This document shows, piece by piece, positions 1,620 to 15,562 of a DNA stretch of 47,272 nt. The stretch is taken from positions 1 through 47,272 of the IMG/VR virus record IMGVR_UViG_3300027870_000214; one strand, 5' to 3'. Both the position numbers and the translations under genes were made by a program. Below the pieces are notes generated by a model, which had not been told where the DNA came from, did no database searches, and worked only from the letters and a program-made list of their open reading frames with translations. Origin of the DNA: a virus. Numbering within the stretch: the stretch's first letter is position 1; every line of letters begins with the position of its first letter.

Positions 1620-2915
1620 ATGTTTATCGATGGGGTCTTGCGCGATGCCTCTGACAAGCGCACGCAGCGACGCCCTGAATCCTGCCACAGGCCAAGTTAT
1701 CGGCGCCGCGGCGCACGCCGGTATCACCTACATCGATGAAGCGCTGCACGCTGCTGCGTCAGGTTATCGTACCTGGCGCGTTTTTTCTGCTTTGGACCGT
1801 TACAAGGTATTGCGGCGTGCGGGCGAACTGTTGCGCGAACGGGTCGAGGTGATGTCCGTCATTCTGACGCAGGAACAGGGAAAGCCACTGGCAGAGGCCA
1901 AGGTCGAAATCCTACTCTCGGCAGATGTTCTCGATTGGGCCGGCGAGGAAGCCCGTCACGCGTATGGCCGCGTCATACCGGGTTGGTCCCCCCAACATCT
2001 TTCAAAGCGTGCTCAAGGAACCGGTCGGTCCCGTCGCCGTCTTCACGCCTTGGAACTTTCCTATGTCGCAGGTAGTTCGAAAGATTGCGCCTGCGCTGGC
2101 TGCAGGCTGCTCGGTAGTTGTGAAGGCGGCAGAGGATACTCCGGCCTCGGCGGCTGAACTTGTTCGTGCTCTTGCAGATGGTGGCATCCCTGCAGGCGCG
2201 CTCAACCTTGTTTTCGGCAACCCTGCCGAAATTTCGACCCATCTCATTCCGCATCCGGTGATCCGCAAAATCTCGTTCACAGGATCGGTGCCTGTCGGAA
2301 AGCAATTAGCAGCACTGGCCGAACAGTACATGAAGAGGGCCACCATGGAACTGGGGGACATTCGCCTGCAATTGTGTTTGACGACGTGAATGTGGAGGAT
2401 GTCGCCGCCATTCTTGCCAGCTCTTCCGCAATGCCGGACAGTCTGCGTGTCGCCGACACGGTTCCTGGTGCAGGAAAGAAAAAGTCTACAATGAGTTTGT
2501 CGAAGTTTTCTCTGCCCATGCCAAAGCGATCAAGGTTGGCAACGGCCTCGACCCAGACACGATGATGGGCCCGGTCGTCAACCAGCGCCGTCTGCAAGCT
2601 ATCGAGGAACTCATCCTCGACGCGCGGCAAGCTGGAGCAACAATTCGAACGGGCGGCAACCGCGTCGGTAACAAAGGAAGCTTTCTTGAGCCCGCTGTAC
2701 TCGCGAACGTTTGATCCGTCCATGCGGGTGATGAATGAGGAGCCTTTTGGCCCGATCGCTCTTCTAACCCCGTTCAATCGCATCGAGGAGGCAGTAGCCG
2801 AGGCCAACCGGCTTCCTATGGGCTCGCTGCCTATGCTTTTTCTGGCTCCGCAAAAACGGTCGCAACACTAACATCGGAGGTTGAAACAGGCATGCTGACG
2901 GTCAACCATTTGGGC
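1602..2915 (+). pseudogene. NAD(P)-dependent aldehyde dehydrogenase (succinate-semialdehyde type), decayed
   Basis: Pieces of one aldehyde dehydrogenase occur in different forward frames. They run from 'MFIDGV' at 1620, through '[15 protein letters not shown]', then '[20 protein letters not shown]', '[20 protein letters not shown]' and '[15 protein letters not shown]', to '[13 protein letters not shown]' at about 2915. Frame changes are visible near 1660, 1975, 2360 and 2480, with further small indels near 2420-2460 and 2715. The catalytic cysteine region near 2440 is scrambled. The last 20 or so expected residues are absent because the frame runs into an IS256-type fragment. The class resembles GabD-like enzymes, but the substrate is not determined. 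Nonfunctional. Confidence 0.85.
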
Positions 2916-3580
2916 TTGGCGCCCCTGAGGCCGCGGCGGGTCAGCTTGCGCAAAAACTCCGTCCAGATCGGCTCGGCCTCCGAGGTGCCGATCTCCATGC
3001 CCAGCACCTCGCGCCGGCCGTCAGCGTTGACGCCGACGGCGATGATGACGGCGACCGAGACGATGCGCCCGCCGCGGCGCACCTTCAGGTAGGTGGCGTC
3101 GATCCACAGGTATGGCCAGTCGCCCTCGATGGGTCTTTCGAGGAAGGCCTTCACCTTGCCGTCGATCTCCTCGCACAGCCGCGAGACCTGGCTCTTCGAA
3201 ATGCCGCTCATGCCCATCGCCTTGACCAGGTCGTCGACCGAGCGTGTCGAGATGCCCTGGACGTAGGCCTCCTGGATGACGGCGGTGAGAGCCTTCTCCG
3301 CCATACGCCGCGGCTCCAGGAAGCTCGGGAAGTAGCTCCCCTTCCTGAGCTTCGGGATGCGCAGCTCGACGGTGCCGGCCCGCGTCTCCCAGTCGCGCTC
3401 GCGATAGCCGTTGCGCTGAGCCAGCCGCAGAGGGTTCTTCTCGCCATAGGCGGCGGCGGTGGCGGCTCCCACCTCCAGCTCCATCAGCCGCTCGGCGGCA
3501 AAGCCGATCATCTCGCGCAAGAGATCGGAATCCGGAGTCTTCTCCATGAGCGCGCGCAGGTTCATCATGTCGTCGGTCAT
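2916..3580 (-). pseudogene. IS256-family transposase, C-terminally truncated
   Basis: This is the N-terminal 220 or so residues of a mutator-type (IS256) transposase, normally about 400 residues. Recognisable parts are '[20 protein letters not shown]', '[20 protein letters not shown]', '[20 protein letters not shown]' and '[20 protein letters not shown]', which carries the first catalytic Asp. Homology stops after '[10 protein letters not shown]' at about 2916. The rest of the 249-codon reading frame is antisense dehydrogenase sequence. The second Asp and the Glu of the DDE triad are therefore missing, and the protein cannot transpose. Confidence 0.88.
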
Positions 3581-4152: not shown

Positions 4153-6087
4153 TCATATTAGCCCCGGGGAAGTGGGATGTGCCTCAATTGATGCGGCGGG
4201 TCTTTTGAAACCGCAATAGTCTCTAGTGTCGCCGCAGGAACGCACCGGACCTTCAGCTTTGATCTGAGAAATCAGCCGCTTGCAGCGCGGGCAAGGCACA
4301 TAGAAGTACCGCTCTTCATGTTGCCGCGCGGTTGCGGCATCCCCACGGGTGTCGAAATGGCTGGAGCGCCAATCCGCGAGAAGATCACCTGGAACTAACT
4401 TCCAAAGACTGTCGCGCGCATCAACCTTGTCGTTGAGGTACGCCACGTTCGAGCGCTGGACCAAGTTGCTGCCAGCGCGCGCAATCGCATCACCCGCAGG
4501 GCCACCTCCGGAGGACGCAAGATCCGCTTTCTCCTCGCCGCCCGGTCGCCCGTTCATTCCAAGAGCAAGCCCAAACTCCAGTTCGTGGAATTCTTCGACG
4601 GTACTGTCTCCGCGGCCGGTGGAACGCAGGGTAACTCGAGCAACGTAGTCATGATCAATCTGAAGGTGGCATTCGATACGTTCGAGAAGTGGCTGTGCTT
4701 TGGGGTCGACTTGGACTTTCGTCACACAAAGAGTGAGCCGTGCATCCGCAGGTGCCGCGCGGCCAAGTTTCACGGGTTTGGCAATCTCGACGACAGCAAC
4801 CCCTTCCCTCGGATCAGTGCAAAAGAGACGCGTGTTTGTGACGTTTTGCGTTTCATTCTCGAGCGGCAGCGTCCAGCCGGCATCAACAAGCGGGTAGTAT
4901 GTCCCACGACCTGAAGTATCGGCTATCAAAATCTCAATGGGCTTCGAGAGCGTCAGCCTGAGGCCGTCGTGGGCGATCCAAGCGGCACCTTCAGCGATAA
5001 TTCGGTCTCCGTTTTCCAGCCTTGGCACCCTCCCGACAAATCGTTCCGTCAAGCCATCCCTGATCGCAGGCATATTTACCATGCCGCCTGTTGCCAAACA
5101 AAGCTCGATGTCCTGATAGGTCAGTCGGGCTAACTCGAGGATTTCGTCAATACGCGACAAGCCACGGGCGACGATGCTTGCGCTTTGTGCATCAAGTTCA
5201 CCTCGCGTCACGCTCGCAACCAGATTCCGCGTCGGCCCATCCGACTTTAGGTAGTTCCGGATGATCACGTCTTCACCGTCGGCGCCCGGATCGGAAAGCT
5301 GGATTTTCACGATTTCGCATTGATGCAGCAGCTTTGCTGCCATCCCAGGCTGTTCGAGAGCCGCGATGTCATCAATGCCATGGGCAGTGGCATGTTTCGT
5401 GCGCAAGAGATTTCTCAACCGTTCGTCGAAACGGTCACCGCCAACTTCGTTGTCCCCGAGGTTGGCGACCTGCATGATTGACCCACCCTGAATCCTGCAG
5501 AGCGTTAGGTCCAGGGTACCGCCTCCCCAGTCGAAGACGAGGATCGATCGCCCCTCCAGGCGAGCTAGTTCCCGGCTCAGATCAGTTTTGGATCGGAGGT
5601 AAGCGTAGAGCGCGGCAACGGGTTCATGCACAAACTGAACGACACCAAGACCAGCCTTTCTGGCCGCCTTGCGCAGGGAGCGTCGCTCCGGCCCACCAAA
5701 GTCCACAGGTATCGTAAACACCGCCCGACCAATATCCTGTCCTGGAGCTTTTCCGCGCGCCAATGCTGCATCTTCCTTCAGATGCCTGAGCACTTCCGCA
5801 ACTGCATCGGTCGGATCGATTGGCCGTCCATCGACAAAGATGGGACCATCCCGTCGAAGTGACATTTTCGGTGATCGCACGAACCCTGGAGGCGCACCTG
5901 TCTCGGTAAGATCCATGTTCTGCCGGGCCTCCCGACCTACCACGACGTCTCCACCACGATACCAGATGACCGACGGGTGTGGTCGGTTCGTAACCTGATC
6001 CGCCAGTGACAACGCACGATCGCCCACAATCATTGCCGCAAGACTGTTTGTCGTTCCAAAGTCGATTCCAAAAACAGTGCCGGTCAT
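4153..6087 (-). CDS. Hsp70-family protein with C-terminal zinc ribbon
   Basis: This 644-residue protein has the Hsp70 actin-type ATPase: phosphate-1 loop FGIDFGTTNS (6-15), phosphate-2 loop VFDWGGGTLDLTL near 200, and an adenosine loop like LATGGMVNMPA near 345. The region after residue 390 does not look like the canonical DnaK substrate domain, and there is no DnaK lid or EEVD-type tail. Instead four cysteines at 599, 602, 618 and 625 form a likely zinc ribbon. It is the last gene of a three-gene set; its ATG overlaps the preceding stop by 4 nt. The local GC is near 50 percent in sampled lines, lower than the phage genes. It is not the housekeeping DnaK. A chaperone-like switch in a defence cassette is my inference. 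Confidence 0.85.
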   Translation of the reverse strand: MTGTVFGIDFGTTNSLAAMIVGDRALSLADQVTNRPHPSVIWYRGGDVVVGREARQNMDLTETGAPPGFVRSPKMSLRRDGPIFVDGRPIDPTDAVAEVLRHLKEDAALARGKAPGQDIGRAVFTIPVDFGGPERRSLRKAARKAGLGVVQFVHEPVAALYAYLRSKTDLSRELARLEGRSILVFDWGGGTLDLTLCRIQGGSIMQVANLGDNEVGGDRFDERLRNLLRTKHATAHGIDDIAALEQPGMAAKLLHQCEIVKIQLSDPGADGEDVIIRNYLKSDGPTRNLVASVTRGELDAQSASIVARGLSRIDEILELARLTYQDIELCLATGGMVNMPAIRDGLTERFVGRVPRLENGDRIIAEGAAWIAHDGLRLTLSKPIEILIADTSGRGTYYPLVDAGWTLPLENETQNVTNTRLFCTDPREGVAVVEIAKPVKLGRAAPADARLTLCVTKVQVDPKAQPLLERIECHLQIDHDYVARVTLRSTGRGDSTVEEFHELEFGLALGMNGRPGGEEKADLASSGGGPAGDAIARAGSNLVQRSNVAYLNDKVDARDSLWKLVPGDLLADWRSSHFDTRGDAATARQHEERYFYVPCPRCKRLISQIKAEGPVRSCGDTRDYCGFKRPAASIEAHPTSPGLI

Positions 6088-7106
6088 GCTTTCGCCTCAC
6101 CAATGATCGAGAGAATTGCCTTCAATCGCCTCAGCGCCACGCCAGGTGCGGACGGCTCGATCTCCAGAGCATCGATCGCGTCAGACAGCAACGGCGCGAC
6201 CCTCTCTCCGAGCAGAACCTTTTGCTCAGCTTTCGCTTCGGTCAGATCATGACCCCAATGCTGACGTTCGGCCGTTAGCTGCGCCTCGATCACCACCAAG
6301 CGCTTCACCTTTTGATCAAGTTCGGCGCGCAGTGCTTCGGCCTCAGCGTGCAGCCGCTCGATAGTCGACCGTGCATCCGCCAGGCGGTGGCGCAAGTCGG
6401 CAGCAGATAGCCTTTCTGAGTCGCGCTCCGACTGTGCCGTCTTGACCATTTCCTGGCCCAACCCCGCCATGGAGATCGCAAGCCGAAATTCGTTCGGTTT
6501 CCCCCGCTGCAATGCTCGCTTGGACAAACGGGCGGCAGCCATCGGATCGACGAACAGATATGGCAGCATGCGCTCGGCTATTCCCCAAGGCGGCAGAGAA
6601 CGCTTTTCAACCAACCAGCAGATTCCCAGTCGCAGCCAGTTCTCAGCGCTCTTGCTCTCGATTTTGTCCTCAGATTTCACAATCGGTGCGAGCCTATCCC
6701 GGAGTGACTTCAAAATACGATCAGCGTCATGGTCCTGCGGATCGAAGTCTTCGCCGAGCACAGATTTCAAGCGCTGTTGTGCCGCCCCCCAAATCCACCT
6801 GTCCACTGATTCTGGCAGGGATCCCTGTGACATAAGTCCCCACAAGCGGTCCCCAGTCGGATCCATCTTTTCCATGAGACCAACTGCATGAGCTTCGTCG
6901 CCTTGCGCGAAACGCTTGATGTCAAGTGTACGCAATACCTTGAAGAATGCGGGCACAGTTGCCTTTGGTTCCTGGAAGTATCCAGAAATTGTCGGGGAGA
7001 TTTGTATCTCTTCCGCAGGTGATTTCTGATGGGTGCCAATTCTGGCCGCATCGGCGTGTGCTGGAGTCGTGCGCGGAACTTTGTTTTCTTCGGTCTCTAT
7101 TGTCAC
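6084..7106 (-). CDS. Coiled-coil protein of the Hsp70 cassette (possible exchange factor)
   Basis: I do not recognise this 340-residue protein as a named family. Residues about 235-300 are a long heptad-rich helix with many Glu, Arg, Leu and Ala, followed by a short helical C-terminus. The N-terminal 230 residues are soluble and helical-looking, with no membrane segment. Its GTG start overlaps the zinc-finger gene's TGA, and its own stop overlaps the Hsp70 start, so all three proteins are probably made together. A long coiled coil beside an Hsp70 recalls GrpE nucleotide-exchange factors, but I see no clear GrpE beta domain. That role is a guess. Confidence 0.75.
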   Translation of the reverse strand: MTIETEENKVPRTTPAHADAARIGTHQKSPAEEIQISPTISGYFQEPKATVPAFFKVLRTLDIKRFAQGDEAHAVGLMEKMDPTGDRLWGLMSQGSLPESVDRWIWGAAQQRLKSVLGEDFDPQDHDADRILKSLRDRLAPIVKSEDKIESKSAENWLRLGICWLVEKRSLPPWGIAERMLPYLFVDPMAAARLSKRALQRGKPNEFRLAISMAGLGQEMVKTAQSERDSERLSAADLRHRLADARSTIERLHAEAEALRAELDQKVKRLVVIEAQLTAERQHWGHDLTEAKAEQKVLLGERVAPLLSDAIDALEIEPSAPGVALRRLKAILSIIGEAKA

Positions 7107-8251
7107 TTTGTCGCGCTCTCTAGATAGGATTCAGCCCATGTGCTGAACGGATATGTAGCCGAGATTTGTCTCAGCGGCTCAATAGCACTTTGCTTGGCGC
7201 TAAGTCGCCATGCAGCGACAGCCCAGATCGCCAAAGCTTTTTGACGGTCAGAAGCATCCAAGAGCTCCGAATTGGCGATCTCTCTGCATTCGCCATCAAG
7301 AATGGGGCTCCACCTGGTTTGTTTGCTCATACGCCCAGCCAAGTTCAAGACCCGGCTGGTGGCATGGTCGATTGGGCAGACCGATCTGCGTACCCCATCT
7401 TCGTCGACAGGTAGACAAAGATCTTGGCTGGGATCCTTCAGAAGCCCATTCGCAATGTCCAGTTCCCGGAAGCCAGTTTCCGTCGTGGTCCGAGAAAAGT
7501 CGTTCAGGGCGAACCGGATAACATCTCCAACTAGCCGTGCCAGCGGCCGATCAAAGTCAGTCAGGCGTTGGACCGCGGAACCGTATAACTCCCGATACCG
7601 AGCGAACGGGGTTGTAAGTGCTTCCGTTTCTGGTCTTTCCTTGAGTAGAACGCCTAACGAATAATCTGCCAACCCCGCCGCGTATTCGGATCCCGCGCCT
7701 GTTGATCTCGGATCTGCCAGAAAGCGTCTAATTGAGGCCCGGGAAATCGGCGCGGACATGATGACTTCGTCGTATGCCCTTTCGACTTCCTTAAGATCAC
7801 GAGTTTCCGCAATCCTGATCGAAAGAGTATACGAGGTTGTCACTGGTGCGGCATTCACTTGCGAGCTGTTGGACAGGCGGAGGGAAACTTCCGCCTGCCT
7901 TAGATCGGAAACCTGCTGAGCAAGCTTGTTCAAGGCGACTGTCTGAAAGGGCATCCCATCGACGGCAACTTGGGCTGACGTAACATTCGCGACGATGATT
8001 TCTGAATTCCGCAGGGGAACCCGTATGACCCTATGCTGCGAAGGTTCAGTTCCCCAAAGCAGGATAAGTGGCCGCTCAACGCGGTGATGATCAGAAACGT
8101 GATCCTGAAGAGCGCGTCTGTCACCTACTACAGCCTTGCAGAACGGGCATGAGTATGTCGGCTCTGGGGCAGGTCCAGGATTGGGCACACGATCTGTGCC
8201 TTCGAAGAAGGCATCCATTCCGTCTTCACGAACCCACCCGAAAGTCGCCAT
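7103..8251 (-). CDS. C2H2 zinc-finger protein of the Hsp70 cassette
   Basis: This 382-residue protein has an N-terminal C2H2 finger with C35, C38, H51 and H55/56, spaced as in 'CPFCKAVVGDRRALQDHVSD'. The remainder (about 60-382) matches nothing I recognise. It has a beta-rich part up to about residue 160 and a helical part after it, which includes a 'CLPVDEDGVRRSVC' stretch. The finger suggests nucleic-acid or protein binding. It is the first gene of the cassette; its stop overlaps the next gene's GTG. A gap of 166 nt separates it from mcrC upstream. It could be the target-sensing subunit, by inference only. Confidence 0.75.
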   Translation of the reverse strand: MATFGWVREDGMDAFFEGTDRVPNPGPAPEPTYSCPFCKAVVGDRRALQDHVSDHHRVERPLILLWGTEPSQHRVIRVPLRNSEIIVANVTSAQVAVDGMPFQTVALNKLAQQVSDLRQAEVSLRLSNSSQVNAAPVTTSYTLSIRIAETRDLKEVERAYDEVIMSAPISRASIRRFLADPRSTGAGSEYAAGLADYSLGVLLKERPETEALTTPFARYRELYGSAVQRLTDFDRPLARLVGDVIRFALNDFSRTTTETGFRELDIANGLLKDPSQDLCLPVDEDGVRRSVCPIDHATSRVLNLAGRMSKQTRWSPILDGECREIANSELLDASDRQKALAIWAVAAWRLSAKQSAIEPLRQISATYPFSTWAESYLESATK

Positions 8252-8417: not shown

Positions 8418-9530
8418 TCATTGTGGCACGCGCAGCAACTCCGCGCGAATGTCCGAAGCGCTGGCCGTCAGGTCGACCGTCATGAATCTGATCTTGTGGC
8501 CCTGAATGATGACGGATTCGTCGAGATGGGAACCAACTGCTGGATGCAGCAGCAGCCCTTCGGCGTCGTCAGAATATCCATCGCCGGAGCCCTCTTGTGA
8601 TCGCAGATAGGCGTACATCTGATACAGGTATCCGCTTCGGAGGCTTTCTTCCCGATACCAGCCGGTCGTCACAATCGCATTGAACTTGGTGTCGATGACG
8701 ATCCTTCGCCGGGCGACTTTGTCATCTAGGACGATGTCTGTTCTCATGCCGGGAAGGATGCGGTCAATTCCTTCTGTGCCAGCTGTTGTCGGCCAAGCCA
8801 AGGCGCCGCCGGTGCTGACCAGCCATTCTGTTGGCGGCAAGACAACCTGAAAGAAGCCACCGACGGCGCGCTCGAACAGTCGGCGCACCCAGCGCTCATC
8901 GCGGTCCGATAGTGGCATTTTCTGTGGTCCGGCGACTTCAGTGGGAATGGCCAGCTCGAAGGCCAGCTTTGCGGCCGCGACCATCTCCTGATCTTCCACG
9001 TCGTGTCGGCCAAAGCGGTCTGTGCTCATTTCGCGCAAGGTCGGCGCAGCACCGGACACGCCCATCATTTTCATCTCGTTCGCCAATCTGCGGCAGCGAC
9101 GGACGACATCTGGCCGTGCTGCAAGCCGCGAGATCAGTTCAAGAGCTGCGCGTACGAAGCGATTTCTCAGTGTATCAACTGTGAGTTCGTCGAACCTGCA
9201 GGCCACAAGCCCCCGTGCCAACAGTTGGTGACGCTCAGTCGTCAGGACGTCAATTCTGCCGCGCACCCGGTTAAGTGCGTCCGTTCTCTGTTTGTAGCCA
9301 AGGCTCAATCTGCGCCGTTGCCGCTGCTCTACCGCGCGCGCCAGAATCTGCCCGACCAAGTCGGGCAGATCATCAGGCATGTCCTCAATGCCCGTCTCAT
9401 CCGTCCCTTTGATGCGAAACAGGTCGGATGCGTAGAGCATCAAAAGCCAGATGTTTCTGACCGGGATTGCGCCAATATAGCCATGACCCGGCGCGGCGTA
9501 GCCATCCGACTCGATGAGTGCGGATTCCAT
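8418..9530 (-). CDS. mcrC: McrC-type nuclease subunit of a methylation-dependent restriction system
   Basis: McrC partners McrB and supplies the nuclease that cuts DNA carrying modified cytosine. The protein (about 370 residues) is typical McrC length. Near residues 262-285 it shows the PD-(D/E)XK core 'GMRTDIVL' followed by 'RRIVIDTKFNAI', giving the D...DxK catalytic pattern. The N-terminal 'IPVRNIWLLMLYASDL' is also characteristic. The ATG at 9530 overlaps the mcrB stop (TGATG) and has AGGA 6 nt upstream; an in-frame ATG at 9536 is possible. The coupled order McrB then McrC is the family norm. Confidence 0.93.
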   Translation of the reverse strand: MESALIESDGYAAPGHGYIGAIPVRNIWLLMLYASDLFRIKGTDETGIEDMPDDLPDLVGQILARAVEQRQRRRLSLGYKQRTDALNRVRGRIDVLTTERHQLLARGLVACRFDELTVDTLRNRFVRAALELISRLAARPDVVRRCRRLANEMKMMGVSGAAPTLREMSTDRFGRHDVEDQEMVAAAKLAFELAIPTEVAGPQKMPLSDRDERWVRRLFERAVGGFFQVVLPPTEWLVSTGGALAWPTTAGTEGIDRILPGMRTDIVLDDKVARRRIVIDTKFNAIVTTGWYREESLRSGYLYQMYAYLRSQEGSGDGYSDDAEGLLLHPAVGSHLDESVIIQGHKIRFMTVDLTASASDIRAELLRVPQ

Positions 9531-11740
9531 CACCATCCTGCAATCAGCTTTTCGAGCGCATCCTTCGCGGTCTTGGGAGAGTCGAACCAGTACTCTTCCA
9601 GCAACGGGCCAATCTCGGTTTCTGCGACCTGAACAAACCAGTCGCGAGTAGATCCCGGTTCAAGGCGTTGGGGCGGGGTGACGTAACTATGACCGATGCG
9701 GAACTGGATCCCGAGATCCTGCTCGATCTTCTGGTTGAGGCTGGAAAGACGCTGTTCGATCCCCTGTGCCAGATCCGGATCAATGCCGCATTGCTGGATC
9801 ACCCAGCCTCGCCAGGAATCCCCGAGCTTCGGTTCCAGCGTTGCAAAGGCAAAACGTCGTCGAAATGCCAGATCCACCAGAGCAAGTGAGCGGTCGGCGA
9901 TATTCATCGTGCCAATCACATGCAGGTTCTCCGGCACGTGCACGGGCCTCCGCTTGCCATCGGCATCCGCATAGCAGAGTTCGAGGGCCTCGCTGGGAGT
10001 CCGTTTCCCGGCTTCTAGCAGCGTCAGGAGTTCCCCGAAAATCTGCGCGGGGTTTCCCCGATTGATCTCTTCGATTACCACCACAAATTTCCAAGTCGGG
10101 CTTTTTGAGGCTGCGCGGATCGCCTCCATGAAGACGCCATCAGCCAGTGCAAGCTTGCCGTCGCCGGTTGGCCGCCAGCCCCGCACGAAGTCTTCATACG
10201 ATAGGTTCGGGTGGAACTGGACCGCTCGGATCCTGCTGTCGTCCTTCTCACCCATCAACGCGTAAGCAAGCCGCTTGGCGATCCATGTCTTTCCCGTTCC
10301 CGGCGGACCCTGAAGGATCAGGTTCTTCTTCGTCCGGAGCCTTTCCAGAAGTCGCTCGACCTCGGCTTGCGAAAGAAAGCAGCCGTCCTTTAGGACGTCG
10401 GCTACCGAATAGGGTTCAAAAACTGGTGCTGGCTGGACAACACCTTTTTGCTGATCCTCGGCGTCACCAAAATCGTCAGCCGACCCGTCGTCCAAAATCG
10501 ATTTCTCCGGTTCTGCCGGATCTTTGTAGTGCCAGGACGCCAAGGACAACTCGGGAAAACTGTGCACCGGATAGCCGTCCTCGGTAAATCGGGCCTTCAG
10601 GTCGTCGATCAGCTTGAGATAACCATCTGCATCTGCGGGCTTTTGTTGCCCTGTCGTGGGAACAGGAATGCTGAGGCGCTTTGCGATATAGTGTCGGGAC
10701 TGGCTGTCCAGAGTGGGGAACTCCCATGGGTGAGCCCAGTAGAGGCCGGTGGAAAGGTTCCATGCAACGCCCCAAACTTGCGTGGCGCCATCATAGGCGT
10801 GAGCCAGCTCCGTGCGGTGCTCGGGAAGATCGGAGCCCACGAACTCGGCCGCCGCCGAAAAAACGCGCCAGAGCGCTTCGATGTCGCCGTCACCACGCTT
10901 TTCTGCATATGAGAAGAACCATGAACGCTGGTTGTTTAGAACAGGGATTCCATCGAATGTGTCTGGAACAGGCACGGAAACGCCGAGTAGCTTGGCTATT
11001 TCGGCCGCGATCACTTTCCTGTTCGCGTCAGTCATCGACCGGTTGAATGTGCCCATCGCGGTGAAGGGACAAATGTCCTGAAGCGGGCCCGTCGTTCCGT
11101 CTGCGAATTTGTCCTGTAGGTACGAAAGACCCGTCACTTTGGTTGCGATCTTATGAATACCCTCGATCAACGGCTTTCGGTCGGCCCGGAATTCCAACAG
11201 CTTTTCAGCCACGGCCTCATAGAAATCAGTCCAAAGAAAGCGCTGCCGGACCGACCCATCGCCGAATCTTTCTCGCCAATAAGGCTCGTTGCGCCAACGG
11301 TCGATATCTTGTGGTTTGTCTTCAAAGGTGAAGGCGATCAGCCCGTCGGCACCCCAATCCCCAACCCCACGCGCGAGTCGCCAAATCACCTCACGGTACG
11401 TGTAGAAGTACCATTCACGCTGTGGCTCTTGTTTGACCCATGATACCCGCACGCGCTTCCCGTCGTTCAGGTTCTCGGTGACCGTGCCGATCGCCTTGAT
11501 GGCCATGACTGATACGGTATTCCCACGATTGTCGAAGGGCAGATTGTGCTTTCGGGTGAAGGTTGACTTGATCGCGATCCTGTCGCCGGGCTGAATGGAG
11601 CGAACCAGGTCGAGATGCTTGTCGTCGTAGCCGTTCTCCCAGATGCCTTCGCTCAGAAATCGAGGCGTCTGGTCTTCAGTCCTGCCAAAACTTGCGCCTA
11701 CGAACCAGTAGAATTTCGGAGCATCGGTGGTTTCTGTCAT
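9530..11740 (-). CDS. mcrB: McrB-type AAA+ GTPase with N-terminal PUA/EVE-like domain
   Basis: This 736-residue McrB-type motor would load McrC onto modified DNA. The C-terminal AAA+ domain has Walker A LQGPPGTGKT near residue 478, Walker B 'FVVVIEEINRGNPAQIFGEL', and the McrB signature 'IGTMNIADRSLALVDLAFRR' that replaces the usual NTP-binding sensor. The N-terminal 130 residues begin 'FYWFVGASFG' and contain 'QPGDRIAIKS' and 'AIGTVTEN', resembling PUA/EVE folds that read modified bases. That assignment is less certain. The middle (about 180-390) resembles no domain I can name. It lies 58 nt downstream of the ImmA-type gene on the same strand. Confidence 0.92.
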   Translation of the reverse strand: MTETTDAPKFYWFVGASFGRTEDQTPRFLSEGIWENGYDDKHLDLVRSIQPGDRIAIKSTFTRKHNLPFDNRGNTVSVMAIKAIGTVTENLNDGKRVRVSWVKQEPQREWYFYTYREVIWRLARGVGDWGADGLIAFTFEDKPQDIDRWRNEPYWRERFGDGSVRQRFLWTDFYEAVAEKLLEFRADRKPLIEGIHKIATKVTGLSYLQDKFADGTTGPLQDICPFTAMGTFNRSMTDANRKVIAAEIAKLLGVSVPVPDTFDGIPVLNNQRSWFFSYAEKRGDGDIEALWRVFSAAAEFVGSDLPEHRTELAHAYDGATQVWGVAWNLSTGLYWAHPWEFPTLDSQSRHYIAKRLSIPVPTTGQQKPADADGYLKLIDDLKARFTEDGYPVHSFPELSLASWHYKDPAEPEKSILDDGSADDFGDAEDQQKGVVQPAPVFEPYSVADVLKDGCFLSQAEVERLLERLRTKKNLILQGPPGTGKTWIAKRLAYALMGEKDDSRIRAVQFHPNLSYEDFVRGWRPTGDGKLALADGVFMEAIRAASKSPTWKFVVVIEEINRGNPAQIFGELLTLLEAGKRTPSEALELCYADADGKRRPVHVPENLHVIGTMNIADRSLALVDLAFRRRFAFATLEPKLGDSWRGWVIQQCGIDPDLAQGIEQRLSSLNQKIEQDLGIQFRIGHSYVTPPQRLEPGSTRDWFVQVAETEIGPLLEEYWFDSPKTAKDALEKLIAGW

Positions 11741-11798
11741 CTCATCGCCCCTTGTCGTCGTTAGGTATCTGTTTGATATTTATCTTCTTGAAGCATGG

Positions 11799-12737
11799 TT
11801 AGGCGGGAAATTGGCCATTGGCCGTGAACTGATCATAAGCATCCCAAGGTTCCTCCTCGATGATCTCGGCACCTCTGCCGTCATCATCGAAGTGCAGCAG
11901 AGAAACCGACATCCCGAGACGCTCTGAAAAGAAGGTGAGTTCCCGCGCCGGTTCGGAGCCACGGCTGAAAGTCCAGATGCCACTTGGAAGTGCCACGGCG
12001 CAATCCTCCCCCGACTGAAGTGCGGTAGACCCCAGTGCCGCGATCGAGCCATCCGGAATCTCCATGCCCGACGGGATGAACACACCGCTCTTGAAAGCTG
12101 CCCTGCTGGCACGTCCCCATAATGCGAACCCGTCGGTCGCAACCACCATTGCTGCGCGCCGATCAGTAAACTCGATCCATTTTCTGACGGCAGCCAACAG
12201 CGACACGCCGTAGCGGTCTGTGATATGCCCCAGCAGGCTACGCGTTATTTCCTGGCCATCGACCTGAATCCGATAGTCGTCAAGCGGCATCAGAAGGTAG
12301 GAAGCGAACGTATCCGCTTCCTCTTCACGCTGCTTTTCCGCAGCTTTCCATGCATTTGACTGGAGCGGTAGGCATTGAAAATCGCAGCTTCGCGCCAGTT
12401 GTCCGCCAGGGTAGTCGGCCTGACCAAGCTTGGGGCGGTGCAACATGTAATGGCCAAGTTCGTGCGCGACTGTGAAGCGTTCGCGGCCGCGATAGCGGGG
12501 TTCTTCGTTGTAGACGATGTGCCATGCAGGCCGCTTGCGATGGGCTCGAAGCATTCCTTCAAATCCGGGAAGTTCGCCGCTGACGACCTTTTCGATGGGG
12601 TCTTCGTTGTTCTTCGAGACTTCAAGCGCGAGTTGCTGGATGTCGATGGGAAAGCGATTCTCCCCGAGCGCCATGCGAAGCATTATGGACAGGCGGTTGG
12701 CTTCTCTTTGGGGCGTTTTCTTTCCGTCCTTTGCCAT
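11799..12737 (-). CDS. ImmA/IrrE-family metallopeptidase
   Basis: This 312-residue protein carries the zinc-peptidase motif HELGH at 92-96 and a downstream 'EEEADTFASYLLMP' that supplies the third ligand, as in ImmA/IrrE proteins. Such enzymes cleave or inactivate a partner XRE repressor during DNA damage or induction, as with ImmA-ImmR of ICEBs1 and phi105. Its ATG at 12737 overlaps the TGA of the XRE gene (TGATG), so the partner is the protein just upstream. A TTG at 12740 is an alternative start. The C-terminal 120 residues are unassigned and may sense the inducing signal. Confidence 0.92.
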   Translation of the reverse strand: MAKDGKKTPQREANRLSIMLRMALGENRFPIDIQQLALEVSKNNEDPIEKVVSGELPGFEGMLRAHRKRPAWHIVYNEEPRYRGRERFTVAHELGHYMLHRPKLGQADYPGGQLARSCDFQCLPLQSNAWKAAEKQREEEADTFASYLLMPLDDYRIQVDGQEITRSLLGHITDRYGVSLLAAVRKWIEFTDRRAAMVVATDGFALWGRASRAAFKSGVFIPSGMEIPDGSIAALGSTALQSGEDCAVALPSGIWTFSRGSEPARELTFFSERLGMSVSLLHFDDDGRGAEIIEEEPWDAYDQFTANGQFPA

Positions 12738-13054
12738 CAATCGTCGTCCAGTATGTTCAGCATCTTGCGCAGCCGTTCTTTTGAGTCGGTCGTCATCCCT
12801 TTGTATTTGCGAAAGAATGCCAGGTCATCGGCATTTTCTTCATTGGCCCCGTCGCCTGCAAGCAGATATTCGGTTGTGGTGTCGAGCGCCAAGGCTATCT
12901 GGCTCAGTTTTTCTGCCGATGGCCGCGTTACCTCCTTGTTTTCGATCTCCCACATGTAACTCTTGCTAGATCCGACCTTCTCCGCGAGGCCCTCCAGCGT
13001 CAGGCTGCGCTTCAGTCTGAGTTCGCGCACGCGCTCGCCCAATGGTGTTGGCAC
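12737..13054 (-). CDS. XRE-family HTH repressor
   Basis: This 105-residue protein has an N-terminal lambda-repressor-like HTH: 'LGERVRELRLKRSLTLEGLA', then 'EKVGSSKSYMWEIENKEV'. The GTG at 13054 was chosen because a perfect AAGGAGG sits 6 nt upstream. The frame stays open to an ATG at 13096 that has no such site. The C-terminal part is short and acidic, with no peptidase domain, so control by the coupled ImmA-type protease is likely. It probably represses the divergent promoter at 13104 and its own transcription. Confidence 0.92.
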   Translation of the reverse strand: MPTPLGERVRELRLKRSLTLEGLAEKVGSSKSYMWEIENKEVTRPSAEKLSQIALALDTTTEYLLAGDGANEENADDLAFFRKYKGMTTDSKERLRKMLNILDDD

Positions 13055-13103
13055 GGCAATCCTCCTTTGTGCCGGGGGTTCGTTGTTACCATACATCTAG
13101 TTC

Positions 13104-13193: not shown

Positions 13194-13433
13194 ATGGCCA
13201 AAAGCAAGGAACCGGGCACCCATCATGTGGTGCCCAGCAACGGTGGCGGCTGGGATATCCGTCGCGGTGGGGCAGAGCGTGCCAGCGGGCACTTTGACAC
13301 CAAGCGGGAAGCGGTGGATCGCGGTCGCGAGATGAGCCGCAACGCTGGGACCGAGCTCAAGGTCCACAACCAGGATGGTCGGATCGGGCAATCGGATTCG
13401 CACGGTAACGATCCCCGCAAGATCAAAGGCTAA
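13194..13433 (+). CDS. DUF2188 family small protein
   Basis: This 79-residue protein matches the DUF2188 pattern: a short beta-rich domain, 'HHVVPSNGGGWDIRRGG', then 'HFDTKREAVDRGREMSRNAG' and 'LKVHNQDGRIG'. The function of the family is unknown. A strong ribosome site (AGGAGG) lies 7 nt before the ATG. It is first in an operon with two unknown genes, 13 nt before the next, driven by the promoter opposite the XRE repressor. Confidence 0.88.
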   Translation: MAKSKEPGTHHVVPSNGGGWDIRRGGAERASGHFDTKREAVDRGREMSRNAGTELKVHNQDGRIGQSDSHGNDPRKIKG

Positions 13434-13446
13434 GGAGAGTTTCCAG

Positions 13447-14634
13447 ATGGCGTCGATCACCAGCTTCATCCGCAACACGCCCGCCGCATCGCTTCGGGCC
13501 TACTTCAATACTTCCGGGATCGAGCTGCCGACGACGCTGGATTGGGATGTCCCCGAGCCTGATGTGGTTCGACCGCTGCTTCAGGCCGTGGATAACATGG
13601 ACGACGCGGCGCGCGGCCGTGTCGTCAACGATGCAGACCGAGTCGGGTCGATGTCTGATGATGCCGGGCAAGTGGCCATCTACAGCGTCATCCATGATCG
13701 GGCTATCCTCGACGGTCTTGCCAACGCTTATGACCGGTCGCTCTGGATGTTCCTGAACCAGCGCATGCAGTTCCAGCATGCGGAGGAAGTCCGCTTCACC
13801 GATGAACGCCGTCGCGGCCGCAGCTGGGATGGTTTCATCTGTGACCTCGATTGTGCGGTGCGGCGGGATCCGATCGCGGTCGATGCCTTCCGGGCGGCAC
13901 TGCGCGAGCGGTTTGCGTCGAACAACATTCACGTCGACATCTTCGAACGTGTTCGCCCGACTTTTGATGGCGAAGACTGCGAACTGGTCCAGATCACGGT
14001 CTACCGGGAAGGCTTGCCCGACGATCACTTTGCTTTCGACGACGATGGGGAACTTGTCCGACGTGCCTATCGTCCCGTTTTTGAAGCGGCCATGACCTAT
14101 GAGCCATCGACGGGTGTCATTGAAGTCGTGGCCAATGACCGTGAAAGCCGTTCGGAGCTCGCGCAGTTCGTTGCTCGCCACCTTCTGGGTGTCGAGTTTA
14201 GCAGCGAAAAGGTCCCGATGCGTCAATACGACCTTTCGGTGCTGCGCAACCGGTTCGGCTTCCCGACTGACCTAGAGGACGGAATCGAGCGGGTTGATGT
14301 TCGCCAATTGCGCCTGATGCCGATCGATCACGAGGGTCGAAGGGTCACGCTCGAAAATACGGCTCGCGCGGGCGGCACGATCTGGGACATGGCGGACGAG
14401 GAGTTCGGCGCCACGAATCCCCTAGGGCGCGGATGGGTGATCACGCAAGCCAAGCTGGCGATCAAGTTTTACCCCAAGGGAGATGCGCGTCGTGGTCGGT
14501 CTTTGACTCTTGCGGTGACGATGCCACACGGGTGCAACCTCAAGGATCAGACCGAACAGGAACAGCTTATCGGCGAGAAGTACATGCGCCGTTGGGGGAT
14601 CCTGGTCGATGACCAGCCGCTCTTCGAGGATTGA
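13447..14634 (+). CDS. Conserved-looking protein of unknown function (395 aa)
   Basis: I do not recognise this protein. The ATG at 13447 follows an AAGGAGAG site, and the frame upstream of it belongs to no gene. It is acidic and soluble, without a signal peptide or membrane helix. Notable segments are 'RSWDGFICDLDCAVRRDP' in the first half and a C-terminal 'IKFYPKGDARRGRSLTLAVT' module that ends in 'LKDQTEQEQLIGEKYMRRWG'. Its last 26 nt overlap the following gene, so the two are probably coupled. It has no catalytic motif I can name. A role in defence or induction is possible only from its neighbours. Confidence 0.8.
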   Translation: MASITSFIRNTPAASLRAYFNTSGIELPTTLDWDVPEPDVVRPLLQAVDNMDDAARGRVVNDADRVGSMSDDAGQVAIYSVIHDRAILDGLANAYDRSLWMFLNQRMQFQHAEEVRFTDERRRGRSWDGFICDLDCAVRRDPIAVDAFRAALRERFASNNIHVDIFERVRPTFDGEDCELVQITVYREGLPDDHFAFDDDGELVRRAYRPVFEAAMTYEPSTGVIEVVANDRESRSELAQFVARHLLGVEFSSEKVPMRQYDLSVLRNRFGFPTDLEDGIERVDVRQLRLMPIDHEGRRVTLENTARAGGTIWDMADEEFGATNPLGRGWVITQAKLAIKFYPKGDARRGRSLTLAVTMPHGCNLKDQTEQEQLIGEKYMRRWGILVDDQPLFED

Positions 14635-15562
14635 TCAACCGACGTTGGACCTGATCAGCACAATTGCTGAGACTCAACGGGGATCCATCTCGGCCATGGC
14701 GCTGTCAACATACTTTGCCGCGGCGGGAAGGCAGCTTCTCGCCGCGGGCCTTTTGGTGCGCAATGGCGATGACAAATTGACCACCTCGCTGGTCGACCAC
14801 GACGATGAGCCGGTTCCCCTGATCTGGTCGCCAAATGATGGCTCCCACGGCTATTTCAGCAACGCCGCAGGCTGGGTGAAAGTTGCTCCACAACAGACGG
14901 CTCTCTATCGGTTGGACATGATGGCAGTCATCGCAAGATTGACAGCGCAGTTCGATCTGGTCGCCCGCCACGGTCCGATCATGTTGTGTCCCGATCTCTT
15001 GTGGGAAATTGGAGATGTTCGGCTGGGTCGCCGTGCCGAGCGAATGCCAGTCTGGTTTGCACGCAGGCTGGCAGACGAGGCCGTCGCGACAAAGGTCTCA
15101 GAGGTGGCAAAGTCACGACCAGCGCCGCGCACGCGCATCGTGCTGACAACGACACCATCGAGATTGATCAAGCTCGCGTCAGTGCCTGGGCAGGTTGTGG
15201 TCAATTTTCGTGACCTGATTGATTTCAACGATGGGCTTGCGGTCCATCCAGAGATGCTTGGGGCCCGTCTTGATGGAGCGCATCCGTCAGATCCGACAGG
15301 GGTCTTGAACTTGTCGCCCGATGGCAAGCGGCTGAGCATCCTTGGCGGCGAGCCGGTCAGCTTCAAGACCGATATCCAGATCAAGATCATTCGAGCGCTT
15401 GTAGCCGGCCACAAGGAGGGCAGGCGCTACTCAGCAGAAGAGTTGCTGACGGCCGCAGGTTCGGGATCCGGATCGTTGCGACGCACTTTCGGCAATGCGA
15501 AGTGGGCCCGTCTCGAATCCTACCTAAAATCGAATAACGGACTCTGGGGGTTCGAGTTCTAG
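14609..15562 (+). CDS. Unknown protein with probable winged-helix C-terminus (317 aa)
   Basis: No family is recognised. The start at 14609 lies inside the preceding gene, which points to coupled translation. The N-terminal half contains 'SISAMALSTYFAAAGRQLLA', which looks like a winged-helix segment, then a mixed region with 'FDLVARHGPIMLCPDLLWEI'. The last 60 residues, 'IKIIRALVAGHKEGRRYSAE' through 'LKSNNGLWGFEF', look like a second helix-turn-helix module with an aromatic end. No nuclease or NTPase motif is visible. Together with the 395-residue protein it forms a fixed-looking pair. Confidence 0.8.
   Translation: MTSRSSRIDQPTLDLISTIAETQRGSISAMALSTYFAAAGRQLLAAGLLVRNGDDKLTTSLVDHDDEPVPLIWSPNDGSHGYFSNAAGWVKVAPQQTALYRLDMMAVIARLTAQFDLVARHGPIMLCPDLLWEIGDVRLGRRAERMPVWFARRLADEAVATKVSEVAKSRPAPRTRIVLTTTPSRLIKLASVPGQVVVNFRDLIDFNDGLAVHPEMLGARLDGAHPSDPTGVLNLSPDGKRLSILGGEPVSFKTDIQIKIIRALVAGHKEGRRYSAEELLTAAGSGSGSLRRTFGNAKWARLESYLKSNNGLWGFEF

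Follow-up and report, generated by a model that had tools for sequence, protein, structure and literature searches.

A 47,272-nucleotide stretch of viral DNA (IMG/VR record IMGVR_UViG_3300027870_000214, positions 1 to 47,272; hereafter the window) carries on its minus strand, between positions 4,153 and 8,251, three genes that encode a C2H2 zinc-finger protein, a coiled-coil protein and a divergent Hsp70, and that are inherited across many bacterial genomes as one ordered unit. We read this trio, with a probability of about 0.45, as an Hsp70 machine that is complete in itself, has co-chaperones of its own and is carried by bacteria and some prophages as an antiviral module. Its part in defence we infer from genomic context, which supports it well, and the trio is a candidate for a new type of defence module, one with a known ATPase family at its base. 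The genes and their predicted parts are as follows.

7103..8251, minus strand: zinc-finger protein gene, 382 residues (open reading frame; 33-sequence alignment; AlphaFold2 model)
8084..8149, minus strand: C2H2 finger, C35-x2-C38-x12-H51-x4-H56 (33-homologue alignment; the profile matches solved C2H2 fingers)
6084..7106, minus strand: coiled-coil protein gene, 340 residues, GTG start (open reading frame; AlphaFold2 model)
6162..6497, minus strand: long helix, residues 204-315, followed by a short helix, residues 321-339 (AlphaFold2 model)
4153..6087, minus strand: divergent Hsp70 gene, 644 residues (Pfam HSP70, 1.3e-47; family alignment of 33)
4963..6087, minus strand: Hsp70 nucleotide-binding domain (ATPase residues conserved in 33 of 33)
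4573..4920, minus strand: probable diverged beta part of the substrate-binding domain, SBDbeta (the full-length profile aligns through SBDbeta of DnaK)
4213..4293, minus strand: C-terminal cysteine motif C599-x2-C602-x15-C618-x6-C625, in the position of the lid (first CxxC in 33 of 33)

A 106-residue Hsp70 signature, run against 84,980 species genomes, recovered 231 relatives, and 80 of these were kept. Profiles for all three proteins were then used to score 84 loci, the window among them, most of which had been fetched by this signature. The complete trio occurs in one order and on one strand in 82 of them, and the two exceptions are fragmentary, the zinc-finger gene being cut off or undetected in both (L007, L009) and the coiled-coil gene shortened in one (L009). 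The original prediction, made from the letters of the window alone, had held these to be a fixed unit of genes with overlapping starts and stops. Both junctions, zinc finger to coiled coil and coiled coil to Hsp70, do overlap in the window, by 4 nucleotides (nt) each, as do 79% and 65% of loci at the two junctions (the rest mostly within ~12 nt, with exceptions of 24 and 95 nt), and co-occurrence elsewhere proved to be the rule rather than a rarity. The same holds when Hsp70 plays no part in the selection: a search of ~1,330 genomes (random Pseudomonadota plus three families) with the zinc-finger profile alone yielded seven genomes beyond the first set, six of which hold zinc finger, coiled coil and Hsp70 in that order, the seventh having just a 94-residue remnant. 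The zinc-finger gene is present as a single copy in each of the 49 genomes in which it was detected, and over 69 trios the pairwise distances measured for one of the three proteins track those of the others (r 0.93-0.95).

Trios were found in Alpha-, Beta- and Gammaproteobacteria and Actinomycetota, and in metagenome-assembled genomes labelled Chloroflexia, Acidobacteria, Nitrospirales, Binatia and Cyanobacteria. Among 398 random Pseudomonadota genomes only two have the trio, both of them previously known positives, and the Buttiauxella trio used as a DNA query found no copy in E. coli. Close relatives, and one 40%-identical copy of the Hsp70, are located in viral contigs and on Paenarthrobacter plasmids; besides the window, three of 2.9 million viral contigs were found with this Hsp70. 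The zinc-finger protein of the window, used as a query, matched nothing in plasmids, viral contigs or 50,697 phage records; its relatives, too diverged for this, were reached via the Hsp70 signature. Zinc-finger queries from L071 or L079 against 72,556 plasmid records returned only two Paenarthrobacter plasmids, both trio-bearing. On each of these an IS3-family element interrupts the zinc-finger gene (L005:5397-7851, L006:11998-13851), so both plasmid trios are broken.

The surroundings of the trio are often those of defence islands, and its homologues do not sit in core housekeeping loci, as its placement in the window had led the original prediction to expect. In a set of 50 whole genomes totalling 240 Mb, 11 of the 20 BrxL genes have a trio no more than 10 kb away (0.10 expected, P=7e-21), as do 11 of ~155 N6_Mtase genes (0.77 expected, P=5e-10) and 2 of 17 McrC genes (0.08 expected, P=0.003), enrichments of ~14- to 110-fold; BrxL was used as the marker of bacteriophage exclusion (BREX) systems in place of PF08665 (PglZ), which is too insensitive for mapping them. 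The recurrent neighbour families, with the number of loci, are BrxL (13), PglX (12), PglZ (12), GmrSD/Orf5/HEC-06 (9), McrB (8), dynamin with a PLD domain (8), serine recombinase (7), DUF1156 methylase (7), tyrosine integrase (6), BrxC (6), PLD helicase (6), DUF499 (5), HsdM (5) and HsdR (4), the cluster names HsdM, HsdR and BrxC having been given by inspection and backed by pooled scans. Type 1 BREX loci have the trio nested between PglX and PglZ, and in two type I restriction-modification (RM) loci (L057, L074) it stands between HsdS and HsdR.

Three neighbours recur close to the trio. In betaproteobacterial loci the zinc-finger gene is preceded, at a distance of 23-34 nt, by the end of a gene for a dynamin-family GTPase of 967-974 residues whose C-terminus holds a PLD-like (MIT_C) domain (L041:4388-7291, L046:4303-7227, L075:4292-7195); this GTPase is a possible fourth component. 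An uncharacterised protein of ~450 residues directly follows actinobacterial trios at 6 loci (including L050:11424-12767, L059:6898-8262, L066:11423-12775 and L005:10769-12109); the L059 copy has no match in Pfam or PADLOC. DUF499-cluster ATPases recur beside the trio together with a DUF1156 methylase and a PLD helicase (L018:4101-7406, L025:2460-5567, L071:15036-18455), a set that is a BREX-related system, and the ATPase of L071 has an N-terminal Swt1-like HEPN domain.

The Hsp70 combines a complete ATPase site with altered coupling surfaces. Residues D9, T12, T13, K74, E155, D186, T191 and D193 are each present in 33 of 33 sequences of the family alignment, and this conserved catalytic set comprises the equivalents of DnaK D8, T11, K70, E171, D194, T199 and D201; judged by these residues, the site is complete. 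R167, N170 and D393 of DnaK are used for contact with DnaJ and for interdomain coupling. In the register of the DnaK alignment, N170 is replaced by His and the linker residue D393 by Lys in 33 of 33, and R167 by Gln in 29 of 33; of the corresponding window residues, H154 and Q151 fall inside a peptide used for retrieval and K382 falls outside. The C-terminal part is colinear with DnaK SBDbeta in the full-length profile alignment (hhalign P=0.0012), and a diverged SBDbeta is probably kept; the C-terminus on its own has no PDB match at E<=1. A recognisable lid appears to be gone, its place taken by a tail with zinc-type cysteines, of which the second pair is usually C-x-C, with one or both cysteines missing or displaced in a minority of the 33. 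The claim that the usual substrate domain had been replaced by unfamiliar sequence plus a zinc ribbon thus stands for the lid but not for the domain as a whole, given the intact ATPase and the SBDbeta that probably persists.

The two partner proteins are less easily placed. In the zinc-finger protein the C2H2 finger first read from the window is judged genuine because its ligands C35, C38, H51 and H56 are invariant in 33 of 33 diverse homologues; the Pfam matches (zf-Di19, 7e-5; zf-C2H2_4, 0.003) both fall under their curated cut-offs. Its model (predicted local distance difference test, pLDDT, 89) shows a single N-terminal finger, a beta-rich domain at about residues 62-146 and a C-terminal half made of helices; at E<=0.001 neither the PDB nor the viral library offers a match to this fold. 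The coiled-coil protein, whose homologues are ~340-505 residues long, is modelled (pLDDT 90) as a helical domain followed by a 112-residue helix and a short helix; it gives nothing firm in Pfam, no match to PDB sequences and no PDB match of the model at E<=0.001. Compared with 22 GrpE sequences it scores P=0.0014 in hhalign, against 0.0062 for a reversed control, a likeness that is suggestive only, and no GrpE is among the fold matches listed for the model.

Replacement of the residues for DnaJ contact and coupling, an intact ATPase and two constant partners together suggest a dedicated chaperone cycle. In such a cycle the zinc-finger protein would take the place of a J-protein and select as target a protein or nucleoprotein of the phage; the coiled-coil protein would act as a scaffold or exchange factor linking it to the Hsp70; and the Hsp70 would serve as an ATP-driven clamp, whose clamping and remodelling would disable the target or signal infection. 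No nuclease is recognisable in the three proteins, so the target would be either inactivated directly by the trio or passed to a neighbouring restriction system. More specifically, and more tentatively, the trio may be an autonomous antiviral system in which the zinc-finger and coiled-coil proteins form an adaptor that brings a conserved protein or nucleoprotein of the phage to the lid-less Hsp70; ATP-driven remodelling would then disable this target without recourse to a nuclease, toxin or signalling nucleotide. We hold this version at less than even odds.

The reading as a self-contained antiviral chaperone machine must be tempered by several observations that count against it. The zinc-finger protein has no DnaJ or J-domain match in Pfam at E<=0.1, on which ground we rejected it as a J-domain protein, and the identity of the coiled-coil protein with GrpE is not established. 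Loci were retrieved partly via the Hsp70 peptides QFVHEP and DWGGG, which biases the invariance seen there. A recurrent defence cluster adjoins the trio in at least 41 of 83 loci, a lower bound in that many contigs are short and counting was limited to clusters shared by several loci, and about half of the loci show none in the sequence covered. The association with restriction systems, finally, would also fit an accessory chaperone that serves those systems.

This last possibility, in which the trio would assemble, activate or restrain BREX, McrBC, type I RM and related machines and have no antiviral activity of its own, is the least unlikely of the alternatives. It would account for the insertion of the trio, with co-directional genes, into BREX operons (PglX/PglZ) and type I RM operons (HsdS/HsdR). 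Its putative clients, however, have no structural kinship with one another (BREX, type I RM, McrBC, dynamin-PLD, GmrSD, DUF499/DUF1156), and at several loci the trio shares its operon with no partner at all. Because the partners vary so much and are often absent from the operon, we favour stand-alone antiviral action over a chaperone for one restriction enzyme.

An RNA-directed module, in which Hsp70 and finger would bind viral or aberrant RNA, is improbable. C2H2 fingers are able to bind RNA. The precedent would be the Hsp70 parts of coiled-coil nuclease tandems (CoCoNuTs), which unite McrBC relatives, coiled coils and Hsp70-like proteins (PMC11090510). Their type III (CnuD/CnuCD) resembles the trio in that its defence loci, too, combine coiled coils and an Hsp70-like protein in the vicinity of McrBC relatives. 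The CoCoNuT McrB GTPases have an NxD motif, and CnuD, fused to or beside CnuC, has degenerate Walker A-like motifs from which very low hydrolysis was inferred, with HEPN RNases in some types (II, III-A) (PMC11090510). The trio, by contrast, has all ATPase residues intact, fixed C2H2 and coiled-coil partners and mostly no McrBC; the McrB of the window is of the NxxD kind, and Pfam and PADLOC scans of the window's cargo proteins found no HEPN domain. On the McrB motif, the intact ATPase and the lack of HEPN we rejected the trio as a type III CoCoNuT.

We assign a similarly low probability to a prophage-encoded chaperone for the folding of phage proteins or for counter-defence. The window is indeed a virus record with terminase, portal and tail genes (products assigned by inspection), and three loci (L003, L013, L016) have phage genes in common with it, but the Hsp70 was found in only three other viral contigs, the zinc-finger protein was found in none of the phage records searched, and bacterial contigs hold most copies, often beside defence genes. 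A general stress or protein-quality-control operon, brought near defence genes by shared genomic islands, is very unlikely: membership of the Hsp70 family and integrases or serine recombinases at 12 of 83 loci would suit it, but we rejected a housekeeping operon on the rare, patchy distribution, the nesting in defence operons and the proximity to more than half of the BrxL genes mapped.

The expectation that no described antiphage system has this composition also held. The zinc-finger and Hsp70 proteins have no PADLOC match at E<=0.1 (PADLOC-DB 2.0.0, dated 2023) and the coiled-coil protein has weak coiled-coil matches to LmuB (E 0.025); the models of PADLOC, Pfam, NCBIfam and PHROG leave both the zinc-finger and the coiled-coil protein undescribed, except for weak matches to the finger and the coiled coil. 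A literature search, in which subscription journals were outside the scope, found no description of the trio. The nearest ideas are the CoCoNuTs (PMC11090510) and the GAP1-N2/DO-GTPase systems (PMC7159879), the latter being predicted conflict systems that use HSP70 together with TRAFAC GTPases, GAP1, GrpE and DnaJ-fused FNIII proteins; in Pfam scans of the window's cargo proteins we saw no TRAFAC GTPase, GAP1, GrpE or DnaJ-fused FNIII protein. With DnaK-DnaJ-GrpE the trio shares an Hsp70 ATPase domain with all catalytic residues and the plan of one Hsp70 plus two helpers; it differs in its replaced J-contact residues and linker Asp, the zinc-type-cysteine tail in place of a lid, the lack of a J-domain, a GrpE that is not established and its patchy occurrence in defence islands. 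It often sits inside type 1 BREX operons, yet it is not a core component, is unmatched by PADLOC BREX models and is free of BREX in the window and at most loci; Pfam and PADLOC scans found no PglZ, BrxC or PglX among the window's cargo proteins, whereas all three adjoin the trio in other genomes. The text of a 2026 BREX survey makes no mention of Hsp70, DnaK or chaperone. A chaperone component in phage sensing has a parallel in bNACHT25, which relies on host DnaJ plus the NACHT protein (PMC12169576); the trio differs in encoding its own chaperone set.

In the window the trio follows other genes on the minus strand, the series reading, from upstream to downstream, CapH-like, CapP-like, McrB, McrC, zinc-finger, coiled-coil and Hsp70 genes, so that McrBC and an XRE/ImmA-type switch do lie beside it as originally described. 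The neighbouring features are these.

12737..13096, minus strand: XRE repressor, CapH-like (PADLOC capH, 3.9e-27)
11799..12740, minus strand: IrrE/ImmA-type peptidase, CapP-like (PADLOC capP, 1.3e-58)
9530..11740, minus strand: McrB-type GTPase with the NxxD motif MNIADR (PRK11331, 2.5e-71, under its cut-off, plus AAA_5; motif read from the translation)
8418..9536, minus strand: McrC nuclease subunit, upstream of the trio on the same strand (NCBIfam PRK09736, 411.5 bits, cut-off 338)
2831-3580: truncated Mutator-family transposase, immediately left of the Hsp70 gene (Pfam)

The GC content of this cargo is 0.54-0.60, lower, as had been noted, than in the phage body to the right (mostly 0.63-0.69). 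McrC and the zinc-finger gene are separated by 166 nt, and the trio may therefore have its own promoter. The CapP-like and CapH-like genes, in tandem with a 4-nt overlap, qualify as a CapP/CapH pair and directly precede McrBC on the same strand (9530-13096); the McrBC genes, and perhaps the trio too, are likely under the control of this switch. Such pairs are best known from cyclic-oligonucleotide-based antiphage signalling systems (CBASS), and by that analogy the McrBC of the window may be controlled by DNA damage. The N-terminal ~190 residues of McrB (gene at 9530-11740) have no Pfam assignment and could, by eye, be a candidate PUA/EVE-like base reader. Two opposite-strand genes stand beside the repressor (13375-15562): one matches phrog_37634, a family whose function is not known (3.4e-81), and the second has no match in Pfam, PADLOC, NCBIfam or PHROGs.

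The trio is compact, at ~4 kb, and is present in genera with cultured members, namely Halomonas, Vibrio, Stutzerimonas, Buttiauxella, Azospirillum and Arthrobacter. An Hsp70 seemingly independent of DnaJ and GrpE would be informative about the ways in which Hsp70 allostery can be rewired. The immune modules known from bacteria mostly work by means of nucleases, toxins, membrane pores, NAD depletion or signalling nucleotides; if our reading is true, a chaperone would here be employed as a defence machine, in the form of a conserved and mobile Hsp70 that brings its own co-chaperones.

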